From assembly GCF_035917995.1 (NCBI RefSeq), contig NZ_CP109131.1, forward strand, positions 1 through 64,000: 64,000 bases of DNA. The letters are read 5' to 3'. This document shows positions 6,581 through 38,203 of the stretch, piece after piece. The first letter of the stretch is position 1. Each line of letters starts with the position of its first letter. The notes beneath the pieces were generated by a model, which saw only the letters and a program-made list of their open reading frames with translations, did not search any database and was not told where the DNA came from. Origin of the DNA: Streptosporangium sp. NBC_01755 (lineage in GTDB: Bacteria > Actinomycetota > Actinomycetes > Streptosporangiales > Streptosporangiaceae). Both the position numbers and the translations under genes were made by a program.

Positions 6581-6590
6581 GATCGGCCTC

Positions 6591-15500: not shown

Positions 15501-18500
15501 GGCGAAATCGAAAGTCAGGTCGAAGTTCGTAATCGAGGGGCGGAGTGGGTCGACACCGGCGTCCAGGCCGGTCATCTTGACCTGTGCGGCCGCGTTGTTC
15601 TGCAGCGCCATCATCACCTGGAACAACGGGTGCCGCGACCTGGACCGGGCCGGGTTGAGCACCTCGACCAGCCGCTCGAACGGCACGTCCTGATGCGCGA
15701 ACGCCGCCAAATCGGCATCTCGCACCCGGCCCAGCAACTCCTCCACCGTCGGATCACCGGACAAGTCGGTACGCAACACCAGCGTGTTGACGAAGAACCC
15801 GACAAGATCATCCAGGGCGTCATCGGTCCGACCCGCCACCGGGCTGCCCAGCGGGACGTCCGTGCCCGCACCCAGCTTGCCCAGCAACACCGACAACCCG
15901 GCCTGCAACACCATGAACAGGCTCGCGTTGTTCTCCCTGGCCAGCACGTCCAGCCCGGCCTTGAGCTCCCGAGTGAGCACGAACTCAAACGCGTCAGCCC
16001 GGTAGCTGGCGATCGCCGGACGCGGCCGATCAGCCGGTAGTGTGATCTCCTCGGGCAGGTCGTCGAGCGTCCTGGTCCAGAAGGCCAGCTGCTCGGAGAT
16101 CAGGCTCCGCTCGTCATCCTCACTCCCCAGCAGCTCCCGCTGCCACAACGCGTAATCCACATACTGCACCGGCAACGGCTTCCACCGCGGCGCCATCCCC
16201 GAACTGCGTGCTTCATAGGCCGCAGCGAAATCATGTGCCAGCGGCGTCGCCGACCAGCCGTCACTGGCGATGTGGTGCAACACGACAAGCAGCACACACT
16301 CAGACGGGCCGAGCACCAACAACTCGGCCCGCATCGGCAACTCCGCAGCCAGGTCGAAACCGACCGAGCAAGCGGCCAGGATCGCGGCCGGGAGTTCCGT
16401 CTCGGTGGCAGACCTGACCACGAGTTCGGGCCTGTCGCTCCTGATGACCTGCACCGGCCGGCCGTCGACCTCCGGGTACACCGTGCGCAGCACCTCATGC
16501 CGCTCCACCACATCGGCCAGAGCCTGCGCCAAGGCGTCCCGGTCCAGCTCACCGCTCAACCGCAAGGCAATCGGCAAGTTGTAGGTCGCCGAGGCCCCTT
16601 CGAGCAGGTTGAGGAACCACAACCGCTGCTGGCCGAACGACAACGGCAACTCGCTCGGCCGCGGCCCGGCCACCAGCGCCGACCGGCTCCGGCCGCCCTC
16701 GCCCATCCGTTCGGCCAGGCCCGCCACCGTCGGCGCGTCGAACACATCCCGGATGGACAGCTCAACACCCAACGCGCCACGAATCCGGCTGATCAGCCTC
16801 ACCGCGAGCAGTGAATGGCCACCCAGGTCGAAGAAGTTGTCGTCGACGCCCACCGAGTCCACGTCGAGGACCTCGGCGAACACCGCACACAGGGCCTCCT
16901 CCCGTGGGTTCCGCGGGGCACGGCCCGAAGACAGGGCCGTGAAGTCCGGCGCCGGCAACGCTTTACGATCCAGTTTGCCGTTCGACGACAAGGGCAGCTC
17001 ATCCAGCGTGACATAGACCGAAGGCAGCATGTATTCCGGCAGCAAACCGGTCAGATACTCCCTCAGCACAGCGGTGTCCAGCGTCCCAGCCGCCGGTACC
17101 ACGTAGGCGACCAGGTGCTGCTCGCCGGTGGTCACCACCGTGTTCCGCACCCCGTCGGCCGACCGGATCGCGGTCTCGATCTCACCCAGCTCGATCCGGT
17201 GCCCGCGGATCTTCACCTGGAAGTCGCGGCGCTCCAGGAACTCCAGCCGGCCGTCCGGCCGATACACCACCCGGTCACCGGTCCGATACAGCCGGCCCTG
17301 GCCGAACGGGCTGGCCACGAACACGGCCGCGGTGCGGGCGGGGTCGTTGAGGTAGCCGCGGCCGACGCCGGTACCGCCCACATACAGCTCACCCGGCACA
17401 CCGACCGGAACCGGTTGCAGGTCATCACCGAGGACGTAGAGCTGGGTGTTGCGGATGGGCCGGCCGATCGGGGTACGCGAGCCCGTGGCGTCATCGGGGT
17501 TGGCGATCACCGCGTGGGTGACGTCGTCGGAGCACTCGGTCGGGCCGTAGGCGTTCATCACCGGGACGGCCGGGTAACTCTGGAGCCACCGGTGGCACAG
17601 CTCCGGCGGCAGCGCCTCACCGGTCACCAGCAGCCACCGCAACTCCGGCCCGGGCAACGTCACCTTGGCGTCCAGGGCGGCCCGCAGCAGGGAGGGCACC
17701 ACCTCCAGCACCGTCACGCCCGGAACGCCGAACAGCCGTTGCGGGTTCATCGCGGTCTCGCGGGAGACCACCCGGACCTGCCCGCCCACGATCATGGCGG
17801 CCAGCATCTGCCACACCGAGATGTCGAAGGTCAGCGGCGCGTTCTGCACCACCACGTCGGAGGGGTTCAGGCCGAGGTCTTCGACCTTGGCCAGCAGATG
17901 GTTGACCATCCCGCGCCGGTGCACCATCGCGCCCTTGGGCCGGCCCGTCGACCCCGACGTGTAGATCACGTAGGCCAGGTCGTCCGCGACCCCCCGCGCC
18001 GGGGCCGGATCATCGTCCACCGCGTCGTCGAACACCAGCATCCGCACACCACCGGCCCCGGCGACCTCGCGGGCCAGGTCCAGATACTCCGGTGCGGCGA
18101 TCAGCACCTCGATGCCGCTGTCGGCGACCAGGGCCGCGGTGCGGGCCACCGGCGCGGCCGGGTCGAAGGGCACATACGCCCCCCCGGCGCCGAGAGCGCC
18201 CAGCACCGCCGACACGTACCGGACACCCGGGTCGCCGAGCAATCCCACCAACGCGCCCGCCGGCAGCTTCTTGGCCACCGCGTTGGCCCGAGCGACCAGC
18301 TCCCGATACGTCACCGACCCCGCATCATCGGTGACCGCGACACCATCCGGGGCAGTGGCAGCCCACTCACGTACCCGCTCCACCACACCCGTGAAATCGC
18401 CCTCGACCGCCGGCGGATTCCACTCCACCAACAACCGGCGGCGTTCCTCCTGGCCGAGTACATCGATCGCACTCAACGGCGCGTCCGCGCCAGGCACCAT

Positions 18501-21500
18501 GCCGTTCAACACCCGTTCCAGCCGGGCTGAAATCTCCTGAACGGTCGCGCGGTCGAACAGGTCGGTGGCGTACGTGACAAGCACGCCGATGCTGCCATCA
18601 TCGTGTTCGGTGAAGTCGAATTCGAGATCGAAGTCCACGGCGGGCGCGTTGAGGGGCTCGACACCGGCGTCCAGGCCGGGCAACTCGACCTGTGCGGCCG
18701 CGTTGTTCTGCAGCACCACCATCACCTGGTACAGCGGCTGCCGCGACTGGGACCGAGCCGGATTGAGCACCTCGACCAGCCGCTCGAACGGCACGTCCTG
18801 GTGCGCGAACGCCGCCAGATCGGCATCTCGCACCCGGCCCAGCAGCTCCCGCACCGTCGGATCACCGGACAAGTCGGTGCGCAGCACCAGCGTGTTGACG
18901 AAGAACCCGACGAGATCGTTGAGGGCGTCATCGGTCCGGCCGGCGACCGGGCTGCCCAGCGGGACGTCGGTGCCCGCGCCCAGCTTGCCCAGCAACACGG
19001 ACAGCCCGGCCTGCAGCACCATGAACAGGCTGGCGTTGTTCTTCCTGGCCAGGCTATCCAGGTCGGACTTGAGTTCCGGAGTGAGCACGAACTCGAACGT
19101 GTCGCCCCGGTAGCTGGCGATCGCCGGACGCGGCCGATCGGCCGGTAGTGTGATCCCCTCGGGCAAGCCGTCGAGCGCCTTGGTCCAGAAGGCCAGCTGC
19201 TCGGAGATCAGGCTCCGCTCGTCATCCTCGCTGCCCAGCAGCTCCCGCTGCCACAACGCGTAATCCACATACTGCACCGGCAACGGCTTCCACCGCGGCG
19301 CCATCCCCGAACAACGCGCCTCATACGCCGCAGCCAGATCCCGCGCCAACGGCATCATGGACCAGCCGTCACTGGCGATGTGGTGCATAACGACAAGCAG
19401 CACACACTCAGACGGGCCGAGCACCAACAACTCGGCCCGCATCGGCAACTCCGCAGTCAGGTCAAAACCGACCGAGCGAGCAGTCTCGATCGCGGCCGGG
19501 AGTTCCGTCTCAGTGACCGACCTGACCACGAGTTCGGGCCTGTCGCTCCTGATGACCTGCACCGGCCGGCCGTCGACCTCCGGATACACCGTGCGCAGCA
19601 CCTCGTGCCGCTCCACCACATCGGCCAGGGCCTGCTCCAAGGCACCCCGGTCCAGGCTGCCCCTCAGCCGGAGCAGCATCGGGATGGTGTAGGTCGCCGA
19701 GGCCCCTTCGAGCAGGTTGAGGAACCACAGCCGCCGCTGACCGAACGACAACGGCAACTCACTCGGCCGCGGCCCGGCCACCAGCACCGGCCGGCTCCGG
19801 CCGCCCTCGCCCATCCGTTCGGCCAGGCCCGCCACCGTCGGCGCGTCGAACACATCCCGCACCGACAGCTCAACACCCAACGCGCCACGAATCCGGCTGA
19901 TCAACCTCACCGCGAGCAGTGAATGCCCACCCAGGTCGAAGAAGCTGTCGTCGACGCCCACCGAGTCCACATCGAGGACCTCGGCGAACACCGAACACAG
20001 GGCCTCCTCCCGCGGGTTGCGCGGGGCACGACCCGAAGACAGGGCCGTGAAGTCCGGCGCCGGCAGCGCTTTACGATCCAGTTTGCCGTTCGGGCTCAGC
20101 GGTAATGCGTCGAGGACCATGACCACCGCGGGAACCATGTAGTCCGGCAGCAGAGTGGCGACGTGTGCCTGGAGCGCGTCAGGCTCGACCTGGCCCACCA
20201 CATAGGCGACCAGATGCTGCTCACCGGCGGTCACCACCGCGTTCCGCACCCCGTCGGCCGACCGGATCGCGGTCTCGATCTCACCCAGCTCGATCCGGTG
20301 CCCGCGGATCTTCACCTGGAAGTCGCGGCGCTCCAGGAACTCCAGCCGGCCGTCCGGCCGATACACCACCCGGTCACCGGTCCGATACAGCCGGCCCTGG
20401 CCGAACGGGCTGGCCACGAACACGGCCGCGGTGCGGGCGGGGTCGTTGAGGTAGCCGCGGCCGACGCCGGTACCGCCCACATACAGCTCACCCGGCACAC
20501 CGACCGGAACCGGTTGCAGGTCATCACCGAGGACGTAGAGCTGGGTGTTGCGGATGGGCCGGCCGATCGGGGTACGCGAGCCCGTGGCGTCATCGGGGTT
20601 GGCGATCACCGCGTGGGTGACGTCGTCGGAGCACTCGGTCGGGCCGTAGGCGTTCATCACCGGGACGGCCGGGTAACTCTGGAGCCACCGGTGGCACAGC
20701 TCCGGCGGCAGCGCCTCACCGGTCACCAGCAGCCACCGCAACTCCGGCCCGGGCAACGTCACCTTGGCGTCCAGGGCGGCTCGCAGCAGGGAGGGCACCA
20801 CCTCCAGCACCGTCACGCCCGGAATGCCGAACAGCCGTTGCGGGTTCATCGCGGTCTCGCGGGAGACCACCCGGACCTGCCCGCCCACGATCAGGGCGGC
20901 CAGCATCTGCCACACCGAGATGTCGAAGGTCAGCGGCGCGTTCTGCACCACCACGTCGGAGGGGTTCAGGCCGAGGTCTTCGACCTTGGCCAGCAGATGG
21001 TTGACCATCCCGCGCCGGTGCACCATCGCGCCCTTGGGCCGGCCCGTCGACCCCGACGTGTAGATCACGTAGGCCAGGTCGTCCGCGCCCCCCCGCGCCG
21101 GGGCCGGATCATCGTCCACCGCGTCGTCGAACACCAGCATCCGCACACCACCGGCCCCGGCGACCTCGCGGGCCAGGTCCAGATACTCCGGTGCGGCGAT
21201 CAGCACCTCGATGCCGCTGTCGGCGACCAGGGCCGCGGTGCGGGCCACCGGCGCATCCGGATCGAACGGCACATACGCACCCCCAGCACCGAGAGCGCCC
21301 AGCACCGCCGACACGTACCGGACACCCGGGTCGCCGAGCAATCCCACCAACGCGCCCGCCGGCAGCTTCTTGGCCACCGCGTTGGCCCGAGCGACCAGCT
21401 CCCGATACGTCACCGACCCCGCATCATCGGTGACCGCGACACCATCCGGGGCAGTGGCAGCCCACTCACGGACCCGCTCCACCACACCCGTGAAATCGCC

Positions 21501-22868
21501 CTCGACCGCCGGCGGATTCCACTCCACCAACAGCCGGTGACGCTCCTGCTCGCCGAGTACATCGATCGCGTTCAACGGCTGGTCCGCAGGCGCGGTGGTA
21601 AACGTGTCCAGAAAGGCGGTGAAACGCGCGAGGTGCGCCTCCACATCAGCCTCGTCATACAGGTCGGTGTTCGCGTCTATTTTGACGCGCAGGCCGCCGT
21701 CCTCACTGTCGTGCACCATGATCGTGAGATCGTCGCTGGGCGGGGTTGTCAGGTTGAACGTTTTCACCGTCGCGGTGCCGAAGCGCATCCCACCGAGGGA
21801 ATTCATTAGGTTGACCTCGGGACCAACCGGGCGACGGTCCTCGGGTGAAAGTCCCATCATCTGCCGAATCTCGCGGGTGCGGAAACGCTGATGACGCACA
21901 ACGAGACCCACCTCCCGGGACGCGTGCGCCAGCACATCACCCCGGCTCATCCCCGGCCGAACAGCCAACACCAACGGCACCAAATTCGCACGCATGCCAG
22001 GCGTCGCCTTGGTGACAGCCGACGTACGCGCGGTCACCGGCAACGACAACACCACATCACGAACCCCGGTAACCCGCTGCACATAACACGCCGTCGCCGC
22101 GATCAGATACGTCGGCCACGCGACACGATGCCCCCAAGCCGCCGCCCGCATCCGCTCCGCGACTCCCGCATCCAGAGTCATGCCACGACGCACGAAGGTG
22201 CGCACCGCGGTGATCGGCCGGCTCGACATGCTCGTCAACTCCACCGGCCCCGCGAACCTCCCCGCCCAGAACTCGCGATCCTTCTCGAACCGCGCCGATT
22301 CCCGGTAGGCCAGCTCCTCCTCGATCAAACCCGCCAACGGCGGAAACACACCATCCCCGTACGACCGGCCCTCCTGAACCGCGGTATAAATCCCCGCCAC
22401 ACGAGCGACAAACAAAGCCTCACTAAAACCATCCCACAACAAATGATGAGCACGCTGATACAACACCGCACGATCCGGGCCAACCCTCAGCAACGCGAAC
22501 CGGAACAACACCGGCGCATCCAACGCCACCGCAGTCCCGGCATCAGCCCGCATCCACCCCAGCGCCGCCCCATCAGGATCAACCTCGCCCGTGAAATCAA
22601 CGACCGAGAACTCCCAATCCTCACAAGGAACCACCGTCTGCCGCACTTCATCACCAACAATGCCGAACCGGGCCCGCAGGCACTCCGCCTCCCCCACGGC
22701 CACCCGCACAGCCCGCTCCAACAGCGCTACATCAAGCTCACCCTCAATAACGTAATAATCCGCGATATTCCAGATCGGATTATCAGGATCAAGCTGCTGG
22801 GCAAACCAAACCTCCAGCTGAGCAGCCGACAGCGGCAAACCAGAACCTGAACCCCGCAGCTCATTCAT
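6591..22868 (-). CDS. NRPS1: five-module synthetase with terminal thioesterase
   Basis: A 5425-residue synthetase ordered Cstarter-A-PCP, then (C-A-PCP)x4, then TE. The ATG at 22868 has GAGGAG 9 bases upstream, and the following LWKMNEL context is shared with NRPS2. The frame is open further upstream to 23048, but that stretch overlaps a conserved promoter block, so the longer start is rejected. All C domains keep HHxxxDG, all PCPs keep GGHSL, and the TE has GWSFGG and a GHDEM His. There are no epimerase or methylation domains. Pocket codes read by eye (GrsA positions 235-331 plus Lys517) are DIWELTADDK, DIWELTADDK, DIWEEAVDGK, DMWELAAIGK and DMGELGEVCK. Glu at 278 throughout suggests basic diamino acids. 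Confidence 0.93.
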   Translation of the reverse strand: MNELRGSGSGLPLSAAQLEVWFAQQLDPDNPIWNIADYYVIEGELDVALLERAVRVAVGEAECLRARFGIVGDEVRQTVVPCEDWEFSVVDFTGEVDPDGAALGWMRADAGTAVALDAPVLFRFALLRVGPDRAVLYQRAHHLLWDGFSEALFVARVAGIYTAVQEGRSYGDGVFPPLAGLIEEELAYRESARFEKDREFWAGRFAGPVELTSMSSRPITAVRTFVRRGMTLDAGVAERMRAAAWGHRVAWPTYLIAATACYVQRVTGVRDVVLSLPVTARTSAVTKATPGMRANLVPLVLAVRPGMSRGDVLAHASREVGLVVRHQRFRTREIRQMMGLSPEDRRPVGPEVNLMNSLGGMRFGTATVKTFNLTTPPSDDLTIMVHDSEDGGLRVKIDANTDLYDEADVEAHLARFTAFLDTFTTAPADQPLNAIDVLGEQERHRLLVEWNPPAVEGDFTGVVERVREWAATAPDGVAVTDDAGSVTYRELVARANAVAKKLPAGALVGLLGDPGVRYVSAVLGALGAGGAYVPFDPDAPVARTAALVADSGIEVLIAAPEYLDLAREVAGAGGVRMLVFDDAVDDDPAPARGGADDLAYVIYTSGSTGRPKGAMVHRRGMVNHLLAKVEDLGLNPSDVVVQNAPLTFDISVWQMLAALIVGGQVRVVSRETAMNPQRLFGIPGVTVLEVVPSLLRAALDAKVTLPGPELRWLLVTGEALPPELCHRWLQSYPAVPVMNAYGPTECSDDVTHAVIANPDDATGSRTPIGRPIRNTQLYVLGDDLQPVPVGVPGELYVGGTGVGRGYLNDPARTAAVFVASPFGQGRLYRTGDRVVYRPDGRLEFLERRDFQVKIRGHRIELGEIETAIRSADGVRNAVVTAGEQHLVAYVVGQVEPDALQAHVATLLPDYMVPAVVMVLDALPLSPNGKLDRKALPAPDFTALSSGRAPRNPREEALCSVFAEVLDVDSVGVDDSFFDLGGHSLLAVRLISRIRGALGVELSVRDVFDAPTVAGLAERMGEGGRSRPVLVAGPRPSELPLSFGQRRLWFLNLLEGASATYTIPMLLRLRGSLDRGALEQALADVVERHEVLRTVYPEVDGRPVQVIRSDRPELVVRSVTETELPAAIETARSVGFDLTAELPMRAELLVLGPSECVLLVVMHHIASDGWSMMPLARDLAAAYEARCSGMAPRWKPLPVQYVDYALWQRELLGSEDDERSLISEQLAFWTKALDGLPEGITLPADRPRPAIASYRGDTFEFVLTPELKSDLDSLARKNNASLFMVLQAGLSVLLGKLGAGTDVPLGSPVAGRTDDALNDLVGFFVNTLVLRTDLSGDPTVRELLGRVRDADLAAFAHQDVPFERLVEVLNPARSQSRQPLYQVMVVLQNNAAAQVELPGLDAGVEPLNAPAVDFDLEFDFTEHDDGSIGVLVTYATDLFDRATVQEISARLERVLNGMVPGADAPLSAIDVLGQEERRRLLVEWNPPAVEGDFTGVVERVREWAATAPDGVAVTDDAGSVTYRELVARANAVAKKLPAGALVGLLGDPGVRYVSAVLGALGAGGAYVPFDPAAPVARTAALVADSGIEVLIAAPEYLDLAREVAGAGGVRMLVFDDAVDDDPAPARGVADDLAYVIYTSGSTGRPKGAMVHRRGMVNHLLAKVEDLGLNPSDVVVQNAPLTFDISVWQMLAAMIVGGQVRVVSRETAMNPQRLFGVPGVTVLEVVPSLLRAALDAKVTLPGPELRWLLVTGEALPPELCHRWLQSYPAVPVMNAYGPTECSDDVTHAVIANPDDATGSRTPIGRPIRNTQLYVLGDDLQPVPVGVPGELYVGGTGVGRGYLNDPARTAAVFVASPFGQGRLYRTGDRVVYRPDGRLEFLERRDFQVKIRGHRIELGEIETAIRSADGVRNTVVTTGEQHLVAYVVPAAGTLDTAVLREYLTGLLPEYMLPSVYVTLDELPLSSNGKLDRKALPAPDFTALSSGRAPRNPREEALCAVFAEVLDVDSVGVDDNFFDLGGHSLLAVRLISRIRGALGVELSIRDVFDAPTVAGLAERMGEGGRSRSALVAGPRPSELPLSFGQQRLWFLNLLEGASATYNLPIALRLSGELDRDALAQALADVVERHEVLRTVYPEVDGRPVQVIRSDRPELVVRSATETELPAAILAACSVGFDLAAELPMRAELLVLGPSECVLLVVLHHIASDGWSATPLAHDFAAAYEARSSGMAPRWKPLPVQYVDYALWQRELLGSEDDERSLISEQLAFWTRTLDDLPEEITLPADRPRPAIASYRADAFEFVLTRELKAGLDVLARENNASLFMVLQAGLSVLLGKLGAGTDVPLGSPVAGRTDDALDDLVGFFVNTLVLRTDLSGDPTVEELLGRVRDADLAAFAHQDVPFERLVEVLNPARSRSRHPLFQVMMALQNNAAAQVKMTGLDAGVDPLRPSITNFDLTFDFAEHGDGSIGVLVTYATDLFDRATAQRMSERLVRVLDSMAFDADAPLSAIDVLGQEERRRLLVEWNPPAVEGGFAGVVERVRERAVAAPDGVAVSDDSGSVSYRELVGRANAVAKRLPGGALVGLLGDPGVRYVSAVLGALGAGGAYVPFDPGTPVARTAALVADSGIGVLIAAPEYLDLAREAVGAGGVRVLVFDDAVDDDLAPPRGTVDDLAYVMFTSGSTGRPKGAMVHRRGMVNHLLAKVEDLGLGASDVVVQNAPVTFDISVWQMLAALIVGGRVRVVSRETAMDPQRLFGVPGVTVLEVVPSLLRAALDVWDGGVSVPELGLRWLESAGEVLPAELCRRWFQRFPAVPVMNVYAPTECSDGVTGAVIRSSDDVAGLRTPIGGPIRNTRVYVLGDDLQPVPVGVPGELYVGGVGVGRGYLNDPARTAAVFVASPFGGGRLYRTGDRVVYRPDGRLEFLERRDFQVKIRGHRIELGEIETAIRSADGVRNAVVTTGEQHLVAYVVGQVEPGALQAHVATLLPDYMVPAVVMVLDALPLSPNGKLDRKALPAPDFTALSSGRAPRNPREEALCAVFAEVLDVDSVGVDDSFFDLGGHSLIAVRLTSRIRGALGVELSVRDVFDAPTVAGLAERMGEGGRSRPVLVAGPRPGELPLSFGQRRLWFLNLLEGASATYTIPMLLRLRGSLDRDALAAALADVVERHEVLRTVYPEVDGRPVQVIRSDNPELVVRSATEAELPAAIQAACSVGFDLTAELPVRSHLFVLGPTESVLLLVLHHIAGDGWSMMPLARDFAAAYEARCSGMVPGWKSLPVQYVDYALWQRELLGGEDDERSLISEQLAFWTKALDGLPEEITLPADRPRPAIASYQADAFEFVLTPELTSGLDVLARQSNASLFMVLQAGLSVLLGKLGAGTDIPLGSPFAGRTDDALDGLVGFFVNTLVLRADLSGDPTVRELLGRVRDADLAAFAHQDVPFERLVEVLNPARSRSRHPLFQVMVVLQNNAAARIELAGLDAGVDPLRPSVSDFDLTFGFTEHGDGGVGVLVTYATDLFDRATVQRMSERLVRVLDSMAFDADASLSAIDVLGQEERRRLLVEWNSSAVEGGFAGVVERVRERAVAAPDGVAVSDDSGSVSYRELVARANAVAKRLPAGALVGLLGGPGVRFVSAVLGVLGAGGAYVPFDPDAPVARTAALVADSGIGVLIAAPEYLDLAREAVGAGGVRVLVFDDAVDDDLAPARGAEDDLAYVMFTSGSTGRPKGAMVHRRGMVNHLLAKVEDLGLDSSDVVMLNAPLTFDMSVWQMLAALIVGGRVRVVSRESAMDPQRLFGVPGVTVLEVVPSLLRAALDVGVTVSGPGLRWLLVAGEALPAELCHRWLQRYPAVPMINAYGPTECSIGVTQAAIRHADDATGSRTPIGRPIRNTQLYVLGDDLQPVPVGVPGELYVGGVGVGRGYLNDSARTAAVFVASPFGQGRLYRTGDRVVYRPDGRLEFLERRDFQVKIRGHRIELGEIETAIRSADGVRNTVVTTGEQHLVAYVVPAAGTLDTAVLREYLTGLLPEYMLPSVYVTLDALPLTSNGKLDRKALPEPDFTALSSGRAPRNSREEVLCSAFAEVLDVETVSIDDSFFDLGGHSLLAVRLISRIRGALGVELSVRDVFDAPTVAGLAERMGEGGRSRSALVAGPRPSELPLSFGQRRLWFLNLLEGASATYNIPMLLRLRGSLDQDALAQALADVVERHEVLRTVYPEVDGRPVQVIRSDRPELVVRSATEAELPAAIGTACSTGFDLTAESPMRAELYVLGQSEYVLLVVLHHIASDGWSMMPLARDFATAYEARCSGMAPRWASLPVQYVDYALWQRELLGSEDDERSLISEQLAFWTKTLEGLPEEIALPTDRPRPAIASYRGDAFEFVLTPELKSDLNSLARKNNASLFMVLRAGLSVLLGKLGAGTDIPLGSPVAGRTDDALDDLVGFFVNTLVLRTDLSGDPTVRELLGRVRDADLAAFAHQDVPFERLVEVLNPARSQSRQPLFQVMVVLQNNAAARVELPGLDAGVEPLNAPAVDFDLEFDFTEHDDGGIGVLVTYATDLFDRATVQEISARLERVLNGMASGVDAPLSAIDVLGERERRRLLVEWNSSAVEGDFTGVVERVREWAATAPDGVAVCDDSGSVTYRELVARANAVTKKLPAGALVGLLGDPGIRYVSAVLGVLGAGGAYVPFDPGTPVARTAALVADSGIGVLIAAPEYLDLAREAVGAGGVRVLVFDDAVDDDLAPVRGVGDDLAYVIYTSGSTGRPKGAMVHRRGMVNHLLAQVEDLELDSSDVMVQNAPLTFDMSVGQMLAGLIVGAQVRVVSRETAMNPQQLFGVPGVTVLEMVPSLLRAALDVWDAGVPVPELGLRWLLVGGEALPAELCHRWLQRYPAVPVMNEYGPTECSVCVTSAVIRNPDDATGLRTPIGRPVRNTQLYVLGDDLQPVPVGVPGELYVGGTGVGRGYLNDSARTAAVFVASPFGQGRLYRTGDRVVYRPDGRLEFLERRDFQVKIRGHRIELGEIETAIRSADGVRNTVVTTGEQHLVAYVVPAAGPLDTAVLREYLTGLLPEYMLPSVYVTLDELPLSSNGKLDRKALPTPDFTALSSGRAPRNPREEALCSVFAEVLDVDSVGVDDNFFDLGGHSLLAVRLISRIRGALGVELSIRDVFDAPTVAGLAGRADVSGSVNSFEVLLPLRVTGHHTPIFCVHPVGCVAWPYIALTAQLGPDFPVYGLQARGMLEPDRVPESVEQMAADYLEQVRTVQPEGPYHLLGWSFGGVVAHEMARQLQQAGQTVALLASLDSHPVAEAGEVELTSDTELLRAILALFGHAAPQRPSAAEVLEILRHEHNLAVLATEEQLMNVVAAWRANVELNLAHRPGRVGGRMLHFVAGRENTPGDWTPFAETVDNHRIDCGHDEMLQPEPLAEISRVLAKEIIPKE
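6594..7350 (-). other. NRPS1 type I thioesterase domain
   Basis: The alpha/beta-hydrolase TE has FCVHPVGG-like FCVHPVGCVAWPY, the nucleophile motif LLGWSFGGVVAHE and a C-terminal CGHDEML His. It is the only TE of the assembly lines and so should release the final product by hydrolysis or cyclisation. It ends 231 bases before the ACP gene. Confidence 0.85.
7370..10469 (-). other. NRPS1 module 5: C - A - PCP
   Basis: Boundaries are approximate. The C domain has HHIASDGWSM. The A domain has FDMSVGQM (Gly instead of Trp at 239), LLVGGEAL and NEYGPTECSVC, giving DMGELGEVCK, the most divergent pocket of NRPS1. The PCP reads DLGGHSLLAV and is followed directly by the thioesterase. Confidence 0.7.
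10470..13579 (-). other. NRPS1 module 4: C - A - PCP
   Basis: Boundaries are approximate. The C domain has HHIAGDGWSM. The A domain has FDMSVWQM, LLVAGEAL and NAYGPTECSIG, giving DMWELAAIGK. The PCP reads DLGGHSLLAV. Confidence 0.7.
13580..16689 (-). other. NRPS1 module 3: C - A - PCP
   Basis: Boundaries are approximate. The C domain has HHIASDGWSA. The A domain has FDISVWQM, WLESAGEVL and NVYAPTECSDG, giving code DIWEEAVDGK, with Glu at both 278 and 299. The A5 motif reads NVYAPTE instead of NAYGPTE. The pocket differs from modules 1 and 2, so another substrate is likely. The PCP reads DLGGHSLIAV. Confidence 0.7.
16690..19799 (-). other. NRPS1 module 2: C - A - PCP
   Basis: Boundaries are approximate. 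An LCL-type C domain with HHIASDGWSM is followed by an A domain whose ten-residue code is identical to module 1 (DIWELTADDK). The A domains of modules 1 and 2 are almost the same at DNA level, pointing to recent module duplication or gene conversion. The PCP reads DLGGHSLLAV. Confidence 0.75.
19800..22868 (-). other. NRPS1 module 1: starter C - A - PCP
   Basis: Boundaries are approximate. The C domain (about 21575-22830) differs from all internal C domains: it has LPLSAAQLEVWFAQQ, HHLLWDGFSEALF and a PPLAGLIEEELAYRES segment like the EntF condensation domain, a type that takes an acyl or aryl donor. The A domain (about 20050-21530) has FDISVWQM, LLVTGEAL and NAYGPTECSDD, code DIWELTADDK. The PCP has DLGGHSLLAV. 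This module most likely acylates the first residue of NRPS1 with the polyene chain. Confidence 0.8.
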
Positions 22869-23292
22869 CTTCCACAGCTCCTCGACACGCTGGGGCTCAT
22901 CGAACTGGACCCGCCACCCGCCGACACCAAGACCAGGATCATGCGTCGACCGGGTAGGACTATCCGTATCGCCTTGACCGTGCATCCTGTACGCCGCATC
23001 TACCAGATCGACTACCCGTCTTCTTCCATCCAGCCGGCGCCGCCTCACCGGACACAGACGACTCCCATCGCCATGAAACGGCCCTCGACTGAGGCTTGCT
23101 CACCATATCCGGACTTTTCTAAGGAAATCACTAGTAAACACACCGGATTAGTTCACCGGAACCTGAATCGTGTTCACATGATTTTCATTTAACAGGGCGG
23201 CATCTGCTTATCATGGCGGGAAATGAGCCACGAATTCTTGCCACCGGTCAACTTCAGGCCGCCCTTGATTGGCCGGGAAAACCAGATCTCCG
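22869..23292 (-). promoter_or_regulatory. Intergenic region NRPS2/NRPS1: probable NRPS1 promoter and leader
   Basis: These 424 bases separate the two NRPS genes. They hold, from the NRPS2 side, a coding remnant (23189-23308, described separately), an AT-richer stretch, and a block (23036-23140) that recurs upstream of the SbnA-like gene. The shared block, and the presence of any gap in an otherwise tightly packed operon, suggest that NRPS1 has its own promoter here. I could not assign -35 and -10 boxes with confidence. Confidence 0.5.
23036..23140 (-). promoter_or_regulatory. Conserved upstream block, copy 1 (before NRPS1)
   Basis: Plus-strand landmarks in order: GGCGCCGCC, TCACCGGACACAGACGAC, GGCCCTCGACTGAGGCTTG, TCACC, ATATCCGGAC, TTCTAAGG, AATCACTAGT. 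The same landmarks with small changes stand at 38239-38356. Non-coding similarity of this length before two separate genes is best explained as a shared promoter/operator for one regulator. Confidence 0.55.
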
Positions 23293-23308
23293 CTACCTCG
23301 TCGCCGAG
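23189..23308 (-). pseudogene. C-terminal coding remnant fused behind NRPS2
   Basis: In the frame shifted relative to the NRPS2 end, 39 codons run from LGDEVAEIWFSRPIKGG through LKLTGGKNSWLISRHDK to a TAA at 23189. The composition looks like a folded protein rather than noise, but no start lies upstream and I do not recognise the family. NRPS2 leaves its normal C-A linker sequence just before this point, so a deletion probably joined NRPS2 to the tail of another gene. Confidence 0.4.
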
Positions 23309-24659
23309 GTGGGCCGGCCGAACATATCGATCGCGCTCAGCGGGGCGTCCACATCAGACACCATGCCGCTCAACACCCGCTCCAGCCCGGCCGAAATCCG
23401 CTGAACTGTCGGGCGGTCGAACAGGTCGGTGGCGTACGTGACCAGCACACCGATACCGCCGTCGTCGTGTTCGGTGAAATCGAAATACAAGTCGTCGTCA
23501 GCGGTCGGAGTGGTGAGCGGTTTGGCGATCGCCTCCAGTCCGGCCAGTTCGGCCTGTGCGGCCGCGTTGTTCTGCAGCACCATCACGACCTGGAACAGCG
23601 GGTGCCGCGACCTGGACCGGGCCGGGTTGATCACCTCGACCAGCCGCTCGAACGGCACGTCCTGGTGCGCGAACGCCGCCAGATCGGCATCCCGCACCCG
23701 GCCCAGCAGCTCCCGCACCGTCGGATCACCGGACAAGTCGGTGCGCAACACCAGCGTGTTGACGAAGAACCCGACAAGATCATCCAGGGCGTCATCGGTC
23801 CGGCCCGCGACCGGGCTGCCCAGCGGGATGTCGGTGCCCGCGCCCAGCTTGCTCAACAACACAGACAGCCCAGCCTGCAACACCATGAACAGGCTCGCGT
23901 TGTTCTCCCTGGCCAGCACGCCCAGCCCGGACGTGAGTTCCGAAGTGAGCACGAACTCGAACGCGTCAGCCTGGTAGCTGGCGATCGCCGGACGCGGCCG
24001 ATCGGCCGGCAGCGCGATCTCCTCCGGCAGACCGTCGAGCGCCTTGGTCCAGAAGGCCAGCTGCTCCGAAATCAGGCTCCGCTCATCATCCTCGCTGCCC
24101 AGCAGCTCCCGCTGCCACAACGCGTAATCCACATACTGCACCGGCAACGGCTTCCACTGCGGCGCCATCCCCGAACAGCGCGCCTCATACGCCGCGGCGA
24201 AATCACGCGCCAGCGGCGCCATCGACCAGCCGTCACCGGCGATGTGGTGCAACACCAACAGCAACACGGACTCGGTCGGACCGAGGATGAACAGCTGAGA
24301 GCGGATCGGCAACTCGCCGGTGAGATCGAACCCGGCCAAGCATGCGGTCTGGATCGCGCCCGGCAACTTAGCCTCAGTTATCGCTCTGACCACCAGCACA
24401 GGCCCCTGGCCCTTGATCTCTTGCACTAGTTGGCCGTCGACCTCCGGATACACTGTGCGCAGTACCTCGTGCCGCTCTACCACATCGGCCAGGGCCTGCG
24501 CCAATGCGTCCCGGTCCGGCTCACCGCTCAACCGCAAAACCAACGGCATGGTGTAGGTCGCCGAGGCCCCTTCGAGCAGGTTGAGGAACCACAACCGCCG
24601 CTGACCGAACGACAACGGCAACTCACCCGGCCGCGGCCCGGCCACCAGCACCGGCCGGC
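23293..24659 (-). other. NRPS2 terminal condensation domain without A-PCP
   Basis: A complete LCL-type C domain (SFGQRRLWFLN, HHIAGDGWSM, the DLVGFFVNTLVLR segment) ends at LSAIDMFGRPTSATR and a stop. In other modules the same place reads LSAIDVLGQEERRRLLVEW and runs on into an A domain. The domain thus has no acceptor carrier on its own protein and must act in trans or be idle. Confidence 0.8.
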
Positions 24660-27600
24660 TCCGGCCCTCATCACCCATCCGCCCGGCCAGACCCGCCACC
24701 GTCGGCGCGTCGAACACATCCCGCACCGACAGCTCAACACCCAACACGCCACGGATCCGGCTGGTCAACCTCACCGCGATCAGTGAATGCCCACCCAGAT
24801 CGAAGAAGTTGTCGTCGACGCCCACCGAGTCCACATCGAGGACCTCGGCGAACACCGCACACAGGGCCTCTTCCCGCGGGTTGCGCGGGCCACGCCCCGA
24901 AGACAGGGCCGTGAAGTCCGGCGCCGGCAACGCTTTACGATCCAGCTTGCCGTTCGACGACAAGGGCAGCTCATCCAGCGTGACATAGACCGAAGGCAGC
25001 ATGTATTCCGGCAGCAAACCGGTCAGATACTCCCTCAACACAGCGGTATCCAGCGGCCCGGCCGCCGGTACCACGTAGGCGACCAGGCGCTGCCGATCGG
25101 CGGTCACCACCGTGTTCCGCACCCCGTCGGCCGACCGGATCGCGGTCTCGATCTCACCCAGCTCGATCCGGTGCCCACGAATCTTCACCTGGAAGTCGCG
25201 GCGCTCCAAGAACTCCAGCCGGCCGTCCGGCCGATACACCACCCGGTCACCGGTCCGATACAACCGGCCCCCACCGAACGGGCTGGCCACGAACACCGCC
25301 GCAGTCCGGGCGGCATCGTTCAGATACCCGCGGCCGACACCCACACCGCCCACATACAACTCACCCGGCACCCCCACCGGAACCGGCTGCAGATCATCAC
25401 CCAGCACATAGACCTGGGTGTTGCGGATGGGCCGGCCGATCGGGGTACGCAGCCCCGCGACGTCATCGGGGTTGGCGATCACCGCGTGGGTGACGTCGAT
25501 GGAGCACTCGGTCGGGCCATAGGCGTTCATCACCGGGACGGCCGGGTAACGCTGAAGCCAGCGGCGGCACAACTCCGCCGGCAACGCCTCCCCAGCCGAC
25601 ACCAGCCACCGCAACCCCAACTCAGGAACCGAGACACCCCCATCCCACACATCCAAAGCAGCCCGCAGCAGAGAGGGCACCACCTCCAGCACCGTCACAC
25701 CCGAAACACCGAACAACCGTTGCGGATCCATCGCGCTCTCCCGGGAGACCACCCGCACCCGCCCCCCCACGATCAGAGCGGCCAGCATCTGCCACACCGA
25801 GATGTCGAACGTCAACGGCGCGCTCTGCACCACCACATCCGACGAATCCAGCCCGAGATCCTCCACCTTGGCCAGCAGATGATTGACCATCCCCCGCCGG
25901 TGCACCATCGCCCCCTTGGGCCGGCCCGTCGACCCCGACGTGTAGATCACATACGCCAGATCGTCCCCAACCCCCCGCACCGGAGCCAGATCATCGTCCA
26001 CCGCATCGTCGAACACCAGCACCCGCACGCCACCGGCCCCGACGGCCTCACGGGCCAAGTCCAGATACTCCGGCGCCGCGATCAACACCTCGATGCCGCT
26101 GTCGGCGATCAGATCCGCTATGCGGGCCACCGGCGCGCCCGGGTCGAAGGGCACATACGCACCCCCGGCGCCGAGCACCCCCAGCACCGCCGACACATAC
26201 CGGACACCCGGATCGCCCAGCAACCCCACCAACGCACCCGCCGGCAACCTCTTGGCCACCGCGTTCGCCCGAGCGACCAGCTCCCGATACGACACCGACC
26301 CCGCATCATCGGTGACCGCGACACCATCCGGAGCAGCCACAGCCCGCTCACGAACCCGCTCCACCACACCCGCGAAACCACCCTCGACCGCCGACGAATT
26401 CCACTCCACCAACAACCGGCGACGCTCCTCCTGCCCGAGCACATCGATCGCACTCAACGGCGCATCCGCATCAAACGCCATGCTGTCGAGAACGCGGACC
26501 AGTCGCTCCGACATCCGCTGAACCGTCGCGCGGTCGAACAGGTCGGTGGCATACGTGACCAGCACACCGACACCGCCATCACCGTGCTCGGTGAAACCGA
26601 AAGTCAGGTCGAAGTCCGTAACCGAGGGGCGGAGCGGGTCGACACCGGCGTCCAGGCCGGCCACCTCGATCCGTGCGGCCGCGTTGTTCTGCAGCACCAT
26701 CATCACCTGGAACAACGGGTGCCGCGACCTGGACCGGGCCGGGTTGAGCACATCGACCAGCCGCTCGAACGGCACATCCTGATGCGCGAACGCCGCCAAA
26801 TCGGCATCCCGCACCCGGCCCAGCAACTCCCGAACCGTCGGATCACCAGACAGATCCGCACGCAACACCAGCGTGTTGACGAAGAACCCCACAAGATCAT
26901 CCAGGGCGTCATCGGTCCGACCCGCCACCGGGCTGCCCAGCGGGACGTCGGTGCCCGCACCCAGCTTGCTCAACAACACAGACAACCCGGCCTGCAACAC
27001 CATGAACAGACTCGCGTTGTTCTCCCTGGCCAGCACGCCCAGCCCGGCCGTGAGTTCCGAAGTGAGCACGAACTCAAACGCGTCACCCCGGTAGCTGGCG
27101 ATCGCCGGACGCGGCCGATCGGCCGGCAGCGCGATCTCCTCCGGCAGACCCTCCAGCGCCCTGGTCCAGAACCCCAGCTGCTCGCAGATCAGACTCCGCT
27201 CGTCATCCTCACCGCCCAGCAGCTCCCGCTGCCACAACGCGTAATCCACATACTGCACCGGCAACGACTTCCACCCCGGCACCATCCCCGAACAACGCGC
27301 CTCATACGCCGCGGCGAAATCCCGCGCCAGCGGCGCCATCGACCAGCCGTCACCGGCGATGTGGTGCAACACCAACAGCAACACGGACTCGGTCGGACCG
27401 AGGATGAACAGCTGAGAGCGGATCGGCAACTCGCCGGTGAGATCGAACCCGGCCAAGCATGCGGCCTCGATCGCGGCCGGGAGGTCCGTCTCGGTGGCAG
27501 ACCTGACCACGAGTTCAGGCCGGTCGCTCCTGATGACCTGCACCGGCCGGCCGTCGACCTCCGGATACACCGTGCGCAGCACCTCGTGCCGCTCCACCAC

Positions 27601-30600
27601 ATCGGCCAGGGCGGCGGCCAAGGCGTCCCGGTCCAGGCTGCCCCTCAGCCGGAGCAGCATCGGGATGGTGTAGGTCGCCGAGGCCCCTTCGAGCAGGTTG
27701 AGGAACCACAACCGCCGCTGGCCGAACGACAACGGCAACTCGCCCGGCCGCGGTCCGGCCACCAGCACCGGCCGGCGCCGACCCTCATCACCCATCCGCC
27801 CGGCCAGACCCGCCACCGTCGGCGCGTCGAACACATCCCGCACCGACAGCTCAACACCCAACACGCCACGGATCCGGCTGGTCAACCTCACCGCGATCAG
27901 CGAATGCCCACCCAGATCGAAGAAGTTGTCGTCGACGCCCACCGAGTCCACATCGAGGACCTCGGCGAACACCGCACACAGGGCCTCTTCCCGCGGGTTG
28001 CGCGGGCCACGCCCCGAAGACAGGGCCGTGAAGTCCGGCGCCGGCAACGCTTTACGATCCAGCTTGCCGTTCGACGACAAGGGCAGCTCATCCAGCGTGA
28101 CATAGACCGAAGGCAGCATGTATTCCGGCAGCAAACCGGTCAGATACTCCCTCAACACAGCGGTATCCAGCGGCCCGGCCGCCGGTACCACGTAGGCGAC
28201 CAGGCGCTGCCGATCGGCGGTCACCACCGTGTTCCGCACCCCGTCGGCCGACCGGATCGCGGTCTCGATCTCACCCAGCTCGATCCGGTGCCCACGAATC
28301 TTCACCTGGAAGTCGCGGCGCTCCAAGAACTCCAGCCGGCCGTCCGGCCGATACACCACCCGGTCACCGGTCCGATACAACCGGCCCCCACCGAACGGGC
28401 TGGCCACGAACACCGCCGCAGTCCGGGCGGCATCGTTCAGATACCCGCGGCCGACACCCACACCGCCCACATACAACTCACCCGGCACCCCCACCGGAAC
28501 CGGCTGCAGATCATCACCCAGCACATAGACCTGGGTGTTGCGGATGGGCCGGCCGATCGGGGTACGCAGCCCCGCGACGTCATCGGGGTTGGCGATCACC
28601 GCGTGGGTGACGTCGATGGAGCACTCGGTCGGGCCATAGGCGTTCATCACCGGGACGGCCGGGTAACGCTGAAGCCAGCGGCGGCACAACTCCGCCGGCA
28701 ACGCCTCCCCAGCCGACACCAGCCACCGCAACCCCAACTCAGGAACCGAGACACCCCCATCCCACACATCCAAAGCAGCCCGCAGCAGAGAGGGCACCAC
28801 CTCCAGCACCGTCACACCCGAAACACCGAACAACCGTTGCGGATCCATCGCGCTCTCCCGGGAGACCACCCGCACCCGCCCCCACGATCAGAGCGGCCAG
28901 CATCTGCCACACCGAGATGTCGAACGTCAACGGCGCGCTCTGCACCACCACATCCGACGAATCCAGCCCGAGATCCTCCACCTTGGCCAGCAGATGATTG
29001 ACCATCCCCCGCCGGTGCACCATCGCCCCCTTGGGCCGGCCCGTCGACCCCGACGTGTAGATCACATACGCCAGATCGTCCCCAACCCCCCGCACCGGAG
29101 CCAGATCATCGTCCACCGCATCGTCGAACACCAGCACCCGCACGCCACCGGCCCCGACGGCCTCACGGGCCAAGTCCAGATACTCCGGCGCCGCGATCAA
29201 CACCTCGATGCCGCTGTCGGCGATCAGATCCGCTATGCGGGCCACCGGCGCGCCCGGGTCGAAGGGCACATACGCACCCCCGGCGCCGAGCACCCCCAGC
29301 ACCGCCGACACATACCGGACCCCCGGATCGCCCAGCAACCCCACCAACGCACCCGCCGGCAACCTCTTGGCCACCGCGTTCGCCCGACCCACCAGCTCCC
29401 GATACGACACCGACCCCGCATCATCGGTGACCGCGACACCATCCGGAGCAGCCACAGCCCGCTCACGAACCCGCTCCACCACACCCGCGAAACCACCCTC
29501 GACCGCCGGCGGATTCCACTCCACCAACAACCGGCGACGCTCCTCCTGCCCGAGCACATCGATCGCACTCAACGGCGCGTCCACGCCAGATGCCATGCCG
29601 TTCAACACCCGCTCCAGCCGGGCTGAAATCTCCTGAACGGTCGCGCGGTCGAACAGGTCGGTGGCATACGTGACCAGCACACCGACACCGCCATCACCGT
29701 GCTCGGTGAAACCGAAAGTCAGGTCGAAGTCCGAAACCGAGGGGCGGAGCGGGTCGACACCGGCGTCCAGGCCGGCCAGCTCGATCCGTGCGGCCGCGTT
29801 GTTCTGCAGCACCATCATCACCTGGAACAACGGGTGCCGCGACCTGGACCGGGCCGGGTTGAGCACATCGACCAGCCGCTCGAACGGCACATCCTGATGC
29901 GCGAACGCCGCCAAATCGGCATCCCGCACCCGGCCCAGCAACTCCCGAACCGTCGGATCACCGGACAAGTCGGTACGCAACACCAGCGTGTTGACGAAGA
30001 ACCCGACAAGATCATCCAGGGCGTCATCGGTCCGGCCCGCGACCGGGCTGCCCAGCGGGACGTCGGTGCCCGCACCCAGCTTGCTCAACAACGCAGACAA
30101 CCCGGCCTGCAACACCATGAACAGACTCGCGTTGTTCTCCCTGGCCAGCACGCCCAGCCCGGACGTGAGTTCCGAAGTGAGCACGAACTCAAACGCGTCA
30201 CCCCGGTAGCTGGCGATCGCCGGACGCGGCCGATCGGCCGGCAGCGCGATCTCCTCCGGCAACCCCTCCAGCGTCTTGGTCCAGAAGGCCAGCTGCTCGG
30301 AGATCAGGCTCCGCTCGTCATCCTCGCTGCCCAGCAGCTCCCGCTGCCACAACGCGTAATCCACATACTGCACCGGCAACGACTTCCACCCCGGCGCCAT
30401 CCCCGAACAGCGCGCCTCATACGCCGCGGCGAAATCCCGCGCCAGCGGCGCCATCGACCAGCCGTCACTGGCGATGTGGTGCAACACGACAAGCAGCACA
30501 TACTCAGACTTGCCGAGCACCAACAGCTCGGCCCGCACCGGCAACTCCGCGGTCAGGTCAAAACCCGTCGAGCAAGCAGTCTCGATCGCGGCCGGGAGTT

Positions 30601-33600
30601 CCGCCTCGGTGGCAGACCTGACCACGAGTTCGGGCCTGTCGCTCCTGATGACCTGCACCGGCCGGCCGTCGACCTCCGGATATACCGTGCGCAGCACCTC
30701 GTGCCGCTCTACCACATCGGCCAGGGCCTGCGCCAATGCGTCCTGGTCCAGGCTGCCCCTCAGCCGGAGCAGCATCGGGATGTTGTAGGTCGCCGAGGCC
30801 CCTTCGAGCAGGTTGAGGAACCACAACCGCCGCTGACCGAACGACAACGGCAACTCACCCGGCCGCGGCCCGGCCACCAGCACCGGCCGGCGCCGACCCT
30901 CATCACCCATCCGCCCGGCCAGACCCGCCACCGTCGGCGCGTCGAACACATCCCGCACCGACAGCTCAACACCCAACACGCCACGGATCCGGCTGGTCAA
31001 CCTCACCGCGATCAGCGAATGCCCACCCAGATCGAAGAAGTTGTCGTCGACGCCCACCGAGTCCACATCGAGGACCTCGGCGAACACCGCACACAGGGCC
31101 TCTTCCCGCGGGTTGCGCGGGCCACGCCCCGAAGACAGGGCCGTGAAGTCCGGCGCCGGCAACGCTTTACGATCCAGCTTGCCGTTCGACGACAAGGGCA
31201 GCTCATCCAGCGTGACATAGACCGAAGGCAGCATGTATTCCGGCAGCAAACCGGTCAGATACTCCCTCAACACAGCGGTATCCAGCGGCCCGGCCGCCGG
31301 TACCACGTAGGCGACCAGGCGCTGCCGATCGGCGGTCACCACCGTGTTCCGCACCCCGTCGGCCGACCGGATCGCGGTCTCGATCTCACCCAGCTCGATC
31401 CGGTGCCCACGAATCTTCACCTGGAAGTCGCGGCGCTCCAGGAACTCCAGCCGGCCGTCCGGCCGATACACCACCCGGTCACCGGTCCGATACAACCGGC
31501 CCCCACCGAACGGGCTGGCCACGAACACCGCCGCAGTCCGGGCGGCATCGTTCAGATACCCGCGGCCGACACCCACACCGCCCACATACAACTCACCCGG
31601 CACCCCCACCGGAACCGGCTGCAGGTCATCACCCAGCACATAGACCTGGGTGTTGCGGATGGGCCGGCCGATCGGGGTACGCAGCCCCGCGACGTCATCG
31701 GGGTTGGCGATCACCGCGTGGGTGACGTCGATGGAGCACTCGGTCGGGCCATAGGCGTTCATCACCGGGACGGCCGGGTAACGCTGAAGCCAGCGGCGGC
31801 ACAACTCCGCCGGCAACGCCTCCCCAGCCGACACCAGCCACCGCAACCCCAACTCAGGAACCGAGACACCCCCATCCCACACATCCAGAGCAGCCCGCAG
31901 CAGAGAGGGCACCACCTCCAGCACCGTCACACCCGAAACACCGAACAACCGTTGCGGATCCATCGCGCTCTCCCGGGAGACCACCCGCACCCGCCCCCCC
32001 ACGATCAGAGCGGCCAGCATCTGCCACACCGAGATGTCGAACGTCAACGGCGCGCTCTGCACCACCACATCCGACGAATCCAGCCCGAGATCCTCCACCT
32101 TGGCCAGCAGATGATTGACCATCCCCCGCCGGTGCACCATCGCCCCCTTGGGCCGGCCCGTCGACCCCGACGTGTAGATCACATACGCCAGATCGTCCCC
32201 AACCCCCCGCACCGGAGCCAGATCATCGTCCACCGCATCGTCGAACACCAGCACCCGCACGCCACCGGCCCCGACGGCCTCACGGGCCAAGTCCAGATAC
32301 TCCGGCGCCGCGATCAACACCTCGATGCCGCTGTCGGCGATCAGATCCGCTATGCGGGCCACCGGCGCGCCCGGGTCGAAGGGCACATACGCACCCCCGG
32401 CGCCGAGCACCCCCAGCACCGCCGACACATACCGGACCCCCGGATCGCCCAGCAACCCCACCAACGCACCCGCCGGCAACCTCTTGGCCACCGCGTTCGC
32501 CCGAGCGACCAGCTCCCGATACGACACCGACCCCGCATCATCGGTGACCGCGACACCATCCGGAGCAGCCACAGCCCGCTCACGGACCCGCTCCACCACA
32601 CCCGCGAAACCACCCTCGACCGCCGGCGGATTCCACTCCACCAACAACCGGCGACGCTCCTCCTGCCCGAGCACATCGATCGCACTCAACGGCGCATCCG
32701 CATCAAACGCCATGCTGTCGAGAACGCGGACCAGTTGCTCCGACATCCGCTGAACCGTCGGGCGGTCGAACAGGTCGGTGGCATACGTGACCAGCACACC
32801 GATGCTGCCATCACCGTGCTCGGTGAAATCGAAATTCAGGTCGAAGTCCGTAACCGAGGGGCGGAGCGGGTCGACACCGGCGTCCAGGCCGGCCAGCTCG
32901 ATCCGTGCGGCCGCGTTGTTCTGCAGCACCATCATCACCTGGAACAACGGGTGCCGCGACCTGGACCGGGCCGGGTTGAGCACATCGACCAGCCGCTCGA
33001 ACGGCACATCCTGATGCGCGAACGCCGCCAAATCGGCATCTCGCACCCGGCCCAGCAACTCCCGAACCGTCGGATCACCGGACAAGTCGGTGCGCAACAC
33101 CAGCGTGTTGACGAAGAACCCGACAAGATCATCCAGGGCGTCATCGGTCCGGCCCGCGACCGGGCTGCCCAGCGGGACGTCGGTGCCCGCACCCAGCTTG
33201 CTCAACAACGCAGACAACCCGGCCTGCAACACCATGAACAGACTCGCGTTGTTCTCCCTGGCCAGCACGCCCAGCCCGGACGTGAGTTCCGAAGTGAGCA
33301 CGAACTCAAACGCGTCACCCCGGTAGCTGGCGATCGCCGGACGCGGCCGATCGGCCGGCAGCGCGATCTCCTCCGGCAGACCCTCCAGCGCCTTGGTCCA
33401 GAACCCCAGCTGCTCGCAGATCAGACTCCGCTCGTCATCCTCACCGCCCAGCAGCTCCCGCTGCCACAACGCGTAATCCACATACTGCACCGGCAACGAC
33501 TTCCACCCCGGCACCGTCCCCGAACAACGCGCCTCATACGCCGCGGCGAAATCCCGCGCCAGCGGCGCCATCGACCAGCCGTCACCGGCGATGTGGTGCA

Positions 33601-37072: not shown

Positions 37073-37110
37073 CTTCCACAAGCTCCTCGACACGCGTAGA
37101 AACCCTGGAC

Positions 37111-38113: not shown

Positions 38114-38203
38114 TCAGCCCTTGCCGTAACGCGTCAACTCATGGAAGAACCCGTCGACCGCCACAAGTCCGCCGTGCACACCGATCTCGTCGAACCAGCG
38201 CAT
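38114..38203 (-). CDS. Candidate 29-residue small ORF upstream of the SbnA-like gene
   Basis: ATG at 38203 to TGA at 38114, starting MRWFDEIGVHGGLVAVDGFF and ending TRYGKG. Most third codon positions are G or C, as in real genes of this genome, and it stops 22 bases before the SbnA-like start. The site before the ATG (AGGTAAG) is only a fair RBS. It could be a leader peptide, a short cluster protein or a gene relic. I do not recognise it. Confidence 0.4.
   Translation of the reverse strand: MRWFDEIGVHGGLVAVDGFFHELTRYGKG

Follow-up and report, generated by a model that had tools for sequence, protein, structure and literature searches.

Among the described systems, the closest to the one reported here are CmnI and VioI of capreomycin and viomycin, T-C (thiolation-condensation) proteins of a four-enzyme diaminopropionate pathway (PMC12400406, as far as the excerpt of that paper goes). 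Like them, NRPS2 of Streptosporangium sp. NBC_01755 is a bacterial non-ribosomal peptide synthetase (NRPS) protein that ends in a condensation (C) domain, here called C5, in the setting of a diaminopropionate pathway. Its gene lies in the 64-kb stretch of DNA that was analyzed as a whole, called the window, which is the beginning of the 8.15-Mb, single-contig genome of this strain. The T domain of the CmnI/VioI type has no adenylation (A) domain of its own, whereas NRPS2 has four A domains for its four peptidyl carrier protein (PCP) domains. The C domain of CmnI presumably serves the next protein; the protein after NRPS2, called NRPS1, opens with a starter-type C domain, and the same excerpt describes no such follower for CmnI or VioI (PMC12400406). 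CmnI (9uay) was also among the structures matched by C5, with an E-value of 7.3e-32.

Internal LCL-type C domains are the second term of comparison, represented here by 5u89, which we take to be DhbF, and by C3 of the fuscachelin synthetase. They resemble C5 in sequence, in the HHxxxD motif, in the gate arginine and in length, the motif reading HHxxxDE in fuscachelin C3 and HHxxxDG in C5. In such synthetases an A-PCP comes next, whereas C5 is followed by a stop codon. Terminal cyclizing C domains, namely the fungal CT domains and the bacterial RapP/FkbP, are similar to C5 in their C-terminal position. C5 appears to differ from them in its internal-type motif and in its nearest relatives, which, in an alignment that held no CT reference, belong to its own genome.

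With regard to origin, the wollamide and desotamide pathways bifurcated by NRPS gene duplication and intragenomic recombination (PMC9205934, in the part of the text available), and the present locus likewise has a duplicated NRPS and recombination inside one genome. Unlike in that published case, as far as the available part describes it, the copied unit would here include the promoter and precursor genes, and the upstream copy would lack its end. In the open-licence literature, to the extent of its accessible extracts, we found no description of an NRPS that ends in a C domain ahead of a protein with a starter C domain. A candidate precedent for a terminal C domain was set aside, as the C domain is N-terminal in the extract of that paper (PMC5550956).

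A Complete Condensation Domain at the End of NRPS2

NRPS2 consists of a starter C-A-PCP module, three C-A-PCP modules, and then C5 and the stop codon (Table 1). An earlier note on this DNA had claimed that this last domain is complete and without a partner, and both statements hold. C5 matches the Pfam Condensation family (PF00668) at positions 4-447 of 456, its residues 1-434 of 435 align with the C domain of 5u89, and its residues 4-433 align with the fuscachelin PCP-C didomain 7kvw, reaching residue 523 of the 528-residue chain. The second open reading frame (ORF) of NRPS2 ends in PLSAIDMFGRPTSATR, directly before the stop, and the 424 bases between this stop and the ATG of NRPS1 are too short for an A-PCP. 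The active-site motif HHIAGDG, of the HHxxxDG form, is intact, as had been noted. Besides the counterpart in a sister cluster (cluster 2, see below), the nearest relatives of C5 were internal C domains of the same genome. Fuscachelin C3 has an acceptor-gate arginine, R2577 (PMC8097023, from the portion of the paper available); in the alignment, R10 of C5 stands opposite chain position 97 of 7kvw, and this position corresponds to R2577 if H2697 is set at chain position 217. This counterpart of the gate arginine points to a carrier-bound aminoacyl acceptor. By its full-length fold, its HHxxxDG motif and its gate arginine, C5 was classed as an LCL-type condensation domain, and it may form amides.

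The earlier reading that NRPS1 opens with a starter C domain of its own was borne out as well. This first domain is of the starter type, unlike C5, and it is closest to the solved starter C domains 7c1h (257.7 bits), CDA PS1 (209.8 bits), ObiF1 and EntF (140.1 bits), with 1l5a (VibH) also among its best solved relatives. The first of these is the starter C domain of RzmA (PMC7804268, from the accessible part). The starter C domain of NRPS2 is 93% identical to that of NRPS1. For NRPS1 the most likely start is the ATG at 22868, because the start of the longer ORF falls in fossil sequence (see below), in a frame that is not kept in cluster 2.

The description of NRPS2 as a single protein needs a correction: the gene lies in two different frames, with a break near 28881. 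The frames meet at a G run in A3 that is two bases shorter than the equivalent place in A2 and A4, and the exact repeats on either side of it (982 and 442 bp) are common to modules 3 and 4. A similar one-base break (genome 7853094-7853098) occurs in the NRPS gene of a third cluster, between exact repeats of 1342 and 613 bp. A homopolymer length as the sole difference inside long exact repeats, found twice, suggests that both breaks are sequence errors.

Origin of the Junction Between NRPS2 and NRPS1

The seam between NRPS2 and NRPS1 is very probably the junction of a tandem operon duplication. The spacer between the two genes aligns with the operon head in three pieces, which follow operon order: the promoter/leader and start of sbnB, the N-terminus of sbnB, and the interior of sbnA. 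These matches reach 57.2-68.9 bits, vs. 31.0 bits for the best of 100 shuffled spacers. As controls, six other 424-base stretches of the window were compared; five gave 24.7 bits or less, and the sixth covers the operon head and thus matches by construction. When the own genome was searched with the spacer, only its counterparts and the operon heads were matched (40 of 86 candidates scored). Since the three fossils stand in operon order, NRPS1 most likely once lay behind its own promoter, sbnB and sbnA.

We propose a head-to-tail duplication of a unit made of promoter, sbnB, sbnA and NRPS. In the upstream copy, the NRPS would have been left ending in the C-A linker, its last domain being a whole C without A, PCP and thioesterase (TE), and the sbnB and sbnA of the downstream copy would have decayed to the fossils. 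The truncation may have occurred in one step, with the breakpoint itself in the C-A linker, or a full copy may have been shortened at its 3' end later. When the sequence that follows the NRPS2 stop was aligned with a C-A linker, the score was 18, for a shuffle mean of 12.7, and 8 of 300 shuffles scored as high or higher. A private deletion of one A-PCP was rejected in view of the same ending in cluster 2 and of the operon fossils that fill the junction. The suggestion that a deletion had removed a fifth A-PCP is right in spirit and wrong in scale, as the sbnB and sbnA fossils make the junction look like the seam of an operon duplication. The orphan C ending is a genuine anomaly. Its origin is well supported, as a tandem duplication of operon head and synthetase that has kept a visible seam.

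Sister Clusters and Other Genomes

Cluster 2 (genome 196-236 kb) has the NRPS2-NRPS1 junction and the NRPS2 tail as in the window. Its NRPS2 has one module (starter C-A-PCP) before the terminal C, vs. four modules in the window, and ends in PLSAIDMLGRPTPAAR; its NRPS1 comes after a similar spacer. Such a pair, with one and four modules before the same terminal C, offers natural replicates. The two junctions are identical at 483 of 521 aligned bases (92.7%), with several indels. The outer flanks (window 1-7571 and 38195-41620, genome 201537-209107 and 231175-234599) are 99.5% identical over 7571 bp and 99.8% over 3426 bp, and the NRPS cores 83-91% in matches of at least 300 bp and at least 80% identity. 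The two clusters would be copies either with cores that diverged or were reshuffled, or with flanks that were later made alike. Cluster 2 has an sbnB of 348 aa (genome 230195-231241); in the window (38092-38480) only the 3' end of sbnB is left. We also observed, in a flank of cluster 2 (L001:572-2818), a PALP domain fused to an ATP-grasp/L-amino-acid-ligase part.

Cluster 3 (7.845-7.867 Mb) contains an NRPS1-type gene in two frames, with seven C and seven PCP motifs; neither an NRPS2 nor a terminal C was found in this cluster. The DNA upstream of its NRPS gene resembles the NRPS2-NRPS1 spacer. An ORF resembling, by eye, a group II intron reverse transcriptase (genome 7867785-7869059) lies directly upstream of this gene, at the place expected for NRPS2.

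A longer NRPS2, which the earlier note had thought might exist in related clusters, was not found: two of the three related clusters of this genome have the truncated NRPS2, the third has an NRPS1-type gene only, and no close relative of the pair appeared elsewhere among the genomes searched. The junction was compared with 16 genomes of the genus (own included). Ten gave some match, only the own genome matched across the junction, and the matches in the nine others (23-106 bases) all fall within the C5-coding part of the query. The starter C domain of NRPS1 has matches at 1e-60 in 137 of 341 genomes of the family (own included), with identities outside the own genome of at most 42% among the matches listed, and a search for related loci gave five loci at 23-31%. 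At 19 starter C loci, a subset from the 136 other matching genomes, no same-strand C domain was detected within 1.4-1.5 kb upstream of the starter C, and the own-genome control recovered C5; locus L036 has a C domain upstream on the opposite strand. Seven of these loci have an A domain upstream (identity 47-52% in six and 25% in the seventh), so that a starter C domain supplied by a PCP would be conceivable there.

A 605-aa hydrolase fusion, used as a marker of the type II polyketide synthase (PKS), was found in 16 of the 341 family genomes and in 3 of 396 genomes of the phylum (own included in both). The NRPS2/NRPS1 pair was not found in six of the type II PKS relatives, over stretches of 32-51 kb, three of which reach a contig end, with ORFs listed for five. 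The C-domain matches in these relatives are 29-41% identical. Four of the six have both SbnA-like (33-37%) and SbnB-like (41-69%) matches; G161 has a C-domain match only, and G010 has neither.

Evolution of C5

C5 appears to evolve like the internal C domains. Between the window and cluster 2 it shows 124 nucleotide differences, with a nonsynonymous rate (dN) of 0.062, a synonymous rate (dS) of 0.231 and a dN/dS of 0.267, inside the range of the 11 other C pairs computed (0.181-0.415). It is open in both clusters, with no stop codon in either. Also, the two C5 domains have 12 private residues in common, the most of any standard C pair in the three clusters, the next pair having 8. Compared with the neutral expectation, nonsynonymous differences are too few in the whole of C5 (58, for 66 synonymous; p 3e-7) and in its middle (29 and 43; p 7e-7). 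The deficit is weak in the first 100 columns (17 and 16; p 0.03) and absent in the C-terminal part (12 and 7; p 0.35), which is the part least shared with other modules. As judged from these comparisons, no decay is seen in C5, and function is not proven by it. Over a 142-bp tract that includes the active site, C5 does not differ from C2 or C4, which is read as gene conversion. In a module array whose members may overwrite one another, an intact active-site motif would be weak evidence of function, a warning that may serve for other such arrays.

Possible Function of C5

If active, C5 must act in trans, most plausibly on an amino acid bound to a carrier of NRPS1. An acyl starter would enter NRPS2 via its starter C domain, and four residues would be added, giving an acylated peptide with no exit in cis. 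The chain on PCP4 could leave only via C5, via another C domain reaching PCP4, by hydrolysis, or not at all. We tentatively favor the first of these routes, at somewhat under an even chance: C5 would take the chain from the last PCP of NRPS2 and pass it in trans to an aminoacyl-PCP of NRPS1. This preference rests on the presence in C5 of the gate arginine known from carrier-dependent C domains, and on the likeness of the modules. The simplest acceptor would be PCP1 of NRPS1, probably loaded with a diamino acid. The A-domain codes, e.g., DIWELTADDK and DIWEVAAIDK, were read from the motifs with an assumed position mapping; from their acidic residues and from sbnA, the A domains probably specify 2,3-diaminopropionate (Dap) or a similar diamino acid. 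The C5 route would be a side entrance competing with the starter C domain of NRPS1, whose TE would release the longer chain. Homogenized domains are thought likelier to interoperate (PMC4256081, in the available portion), and the near-identical modules of these NRPSs were counted in favor of such a transfer. The locus would allow a direct test of whether homogenized modules exchange intermediates without docking domains, which is relevant to NRPS engineering. Taken together and loosely, duplication origin and transfer in trans form a picture that we hold to be marginally probable.

Several observations weigh against this picture. A segment of about 160 bp that separates the NRPS2 stop from the first fossil has no match in the present operon head, so that the breakpoint could not be placed. 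The outer flanks agree far better between the two clusters (99.5-99.8%) than the junction does (92.7%), so that events can be ordered in more than one way. In the window, NRPS2 carries the frame break upstream of C5, and NRPS1 is self-sufficient, from starter C domain through to TE. No docking segment was seen, by eye, in the eight residues after PLSAIDMF at the NRPS2 C-terminus, and both synthetases begin in a similar way (MNELRGSGSG in NRPS1, MNELQGSGSS in NRPS2); thus nothing was seen that directs a hand-over. In columns 360-460 of C5, 11 of 18 differences are nonsynonymous, for a median of 0.61 in 125 control pairs, which is the same as in other C domains. Of 23 sixty-base windows of the C5 in the window, 16 are nearer to another of the 17 standard C domains, 5 to the counterpart, and 2 are ties, in a best-of-17 comparison that somewhat favors the other domains. 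Finally, as the active-site tract is identical to sister modules, the intact motif could come from them and proves little.

Close behind the transfer in trans, and also held at less than an even chance, stands the possibility that the same duplication left NRPS2 behind as a dead-end relic, partnerless, forming at most stalled intermediates cleared by a hydrolase, its intact look being preserved by gene conversion. The lack of a visible docking segment, the completeness of NRPS1, the frame break, and the tracts across C5 in common with sister modules all favor it, as does cluster 3 with its NRPS1-type gene and no NRPS2. What speaks against a relic is the open ending kept in two clusters despite the 124 differences in C5, together with the private residues common to both C5 domains and the dN/dS like that of other C domains.

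Release of the NRPS2 peptide by C5 onto a soluble amine or a side-chain amine, e.g., that of Dap, is unlikely. VibH acts on a free polyamine; the operon contains a diaminopropionate gene, and a full C domain adjoins a carrier with no other exit. C5 carries, however, the gate arginine known from carrier-dependent C domains. Its nearest relatives are ordinary internal C domains, and at a cut-off of 1e-20 VibH (1l5a) appears only among the relatives of the starter C domain. A long shot is that NRPS2 and NRPS1 each receive a separate type II PKS acyl chain through their starter C domains, and that C5 attaches the finished NRPS2 chain to a diaminopropionate bound to a carrier of NRPS1, at the second amine of this residue. 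If true, two assembly lines that arose in one tandem operon duplication would converge to yield a branched, doubly acylated lipopeptide.

Even less probable is a direct uptake of the chain by the starter C domain of NRPS1 from the last PCP of NRPS2, with C5 as a bystander. Seven of the 19 starter C loci in other genomes have an A domain 310-512 bases upstream on the same strand, and some of these starter C domains may follow an A-PCP; here, C5 would stand between the PCP and its target, and again no docking segment was seen. The least credible of all is an assembly artefact, caused by near-identical modules, in the junction or in the order of the modules. It might be suggested by exact internal repeats, which reach 982 bp in cluster 1 (that of the window) and 1342 bp in cluster 3, and by the two frame breaks, each of which is all that differs between neighboring exact repeats. 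The junction, however, is present in two copies that differ in their substitutions and indels, and it is located outside the exact repeats of at least 300 bp; the spacer is matched in its own genome by counterparts and operon heads only (40 of 86 candidates scored).

Gene Layout of the Window

On the minus strand of the window, sbnA, NRPS2 and NRPS1 follow in this order, with type II polyketide/fatty acid synthase-type genes downstream (Table 1).

Table 1. Features of the NRPS2-NRPS1 locus, in window coordinates.
Feature	Position	Strand	Remarks
sbnA-like 2,3-diaminopropionate biosynthesis gene	37111..38091	-	TIGR03945, 362.8 bits vs. cut-off 349.95; overlaps the start of NRPS2
3' remnant of sbnB, operon head	38114..38192	-	bulk of sbnB absent at the head of the window cluster
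NRPS2, first frame	28739..37114	-	starter C, A1, PCP1, C2, A2, PCP2, C3, part of A3
NRPS2, second frame	23293..28875	-	remaining A3, PCP3, C4, A4, PCP4, C5
Frame break in A3 of NRPS2	28879..28883	-	G run shorter than in A2/A4, between exact repeats of 982 and 442 bp
C5, orphan terminal condensation domain of NRPS2	23320..24624	-	Pfam PF00668; nearly full-length alignment to solved C domains
HHIAGDG active-site motif of C5	24229..24249	-	position counted from alignment
142-bp tract of C5 including active site	24206..24347	-	identical to C2 (33555-33696) and C4 (27323-27464)
C-terminal tail of NRPS2 after PLSAIDMF	23293..23319	-	8 residues and stop; similar tail in cluster 2
Fossil: sbnB promoter/leader and start	23035..23135	-	73% to genome 231332-231221, 68.9 bits
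Fossil: sbnB N-terminal coding region	22964..23034	-	80% to genome 231179-231106, 60.8 bits
Fossil: internal piece of sbnA	22893..22954	-	81% to genome 229533-229471, 57.2 bits
NRPS1	6591..22868	-	starter C and five A-PCP modules, thioesterase at end; probable start codon by cluster 2 comparison
Starter-type C at NRPS1 N-terminus	21528..22865	-	HHLLWDG intact
Thioesterase domain of NRPS1	6639..7304	-	PF00975, E 2.5e-28; window position computed from match

Beside these features, a small ORF resembling MbtH by eye (window 38683-38892) adjoins acyl carrier protein (ACP) and FabF-like ketosynthase (KS) genes. The 605-aa protein used above as a marker (window 2979-4796) is an alpha/beta hydrolase joined to a 4HBT_2 thioesterase-like domain. 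Its cluster 2 copy is 100% identical, and several relatives give separate matches to its two halves.
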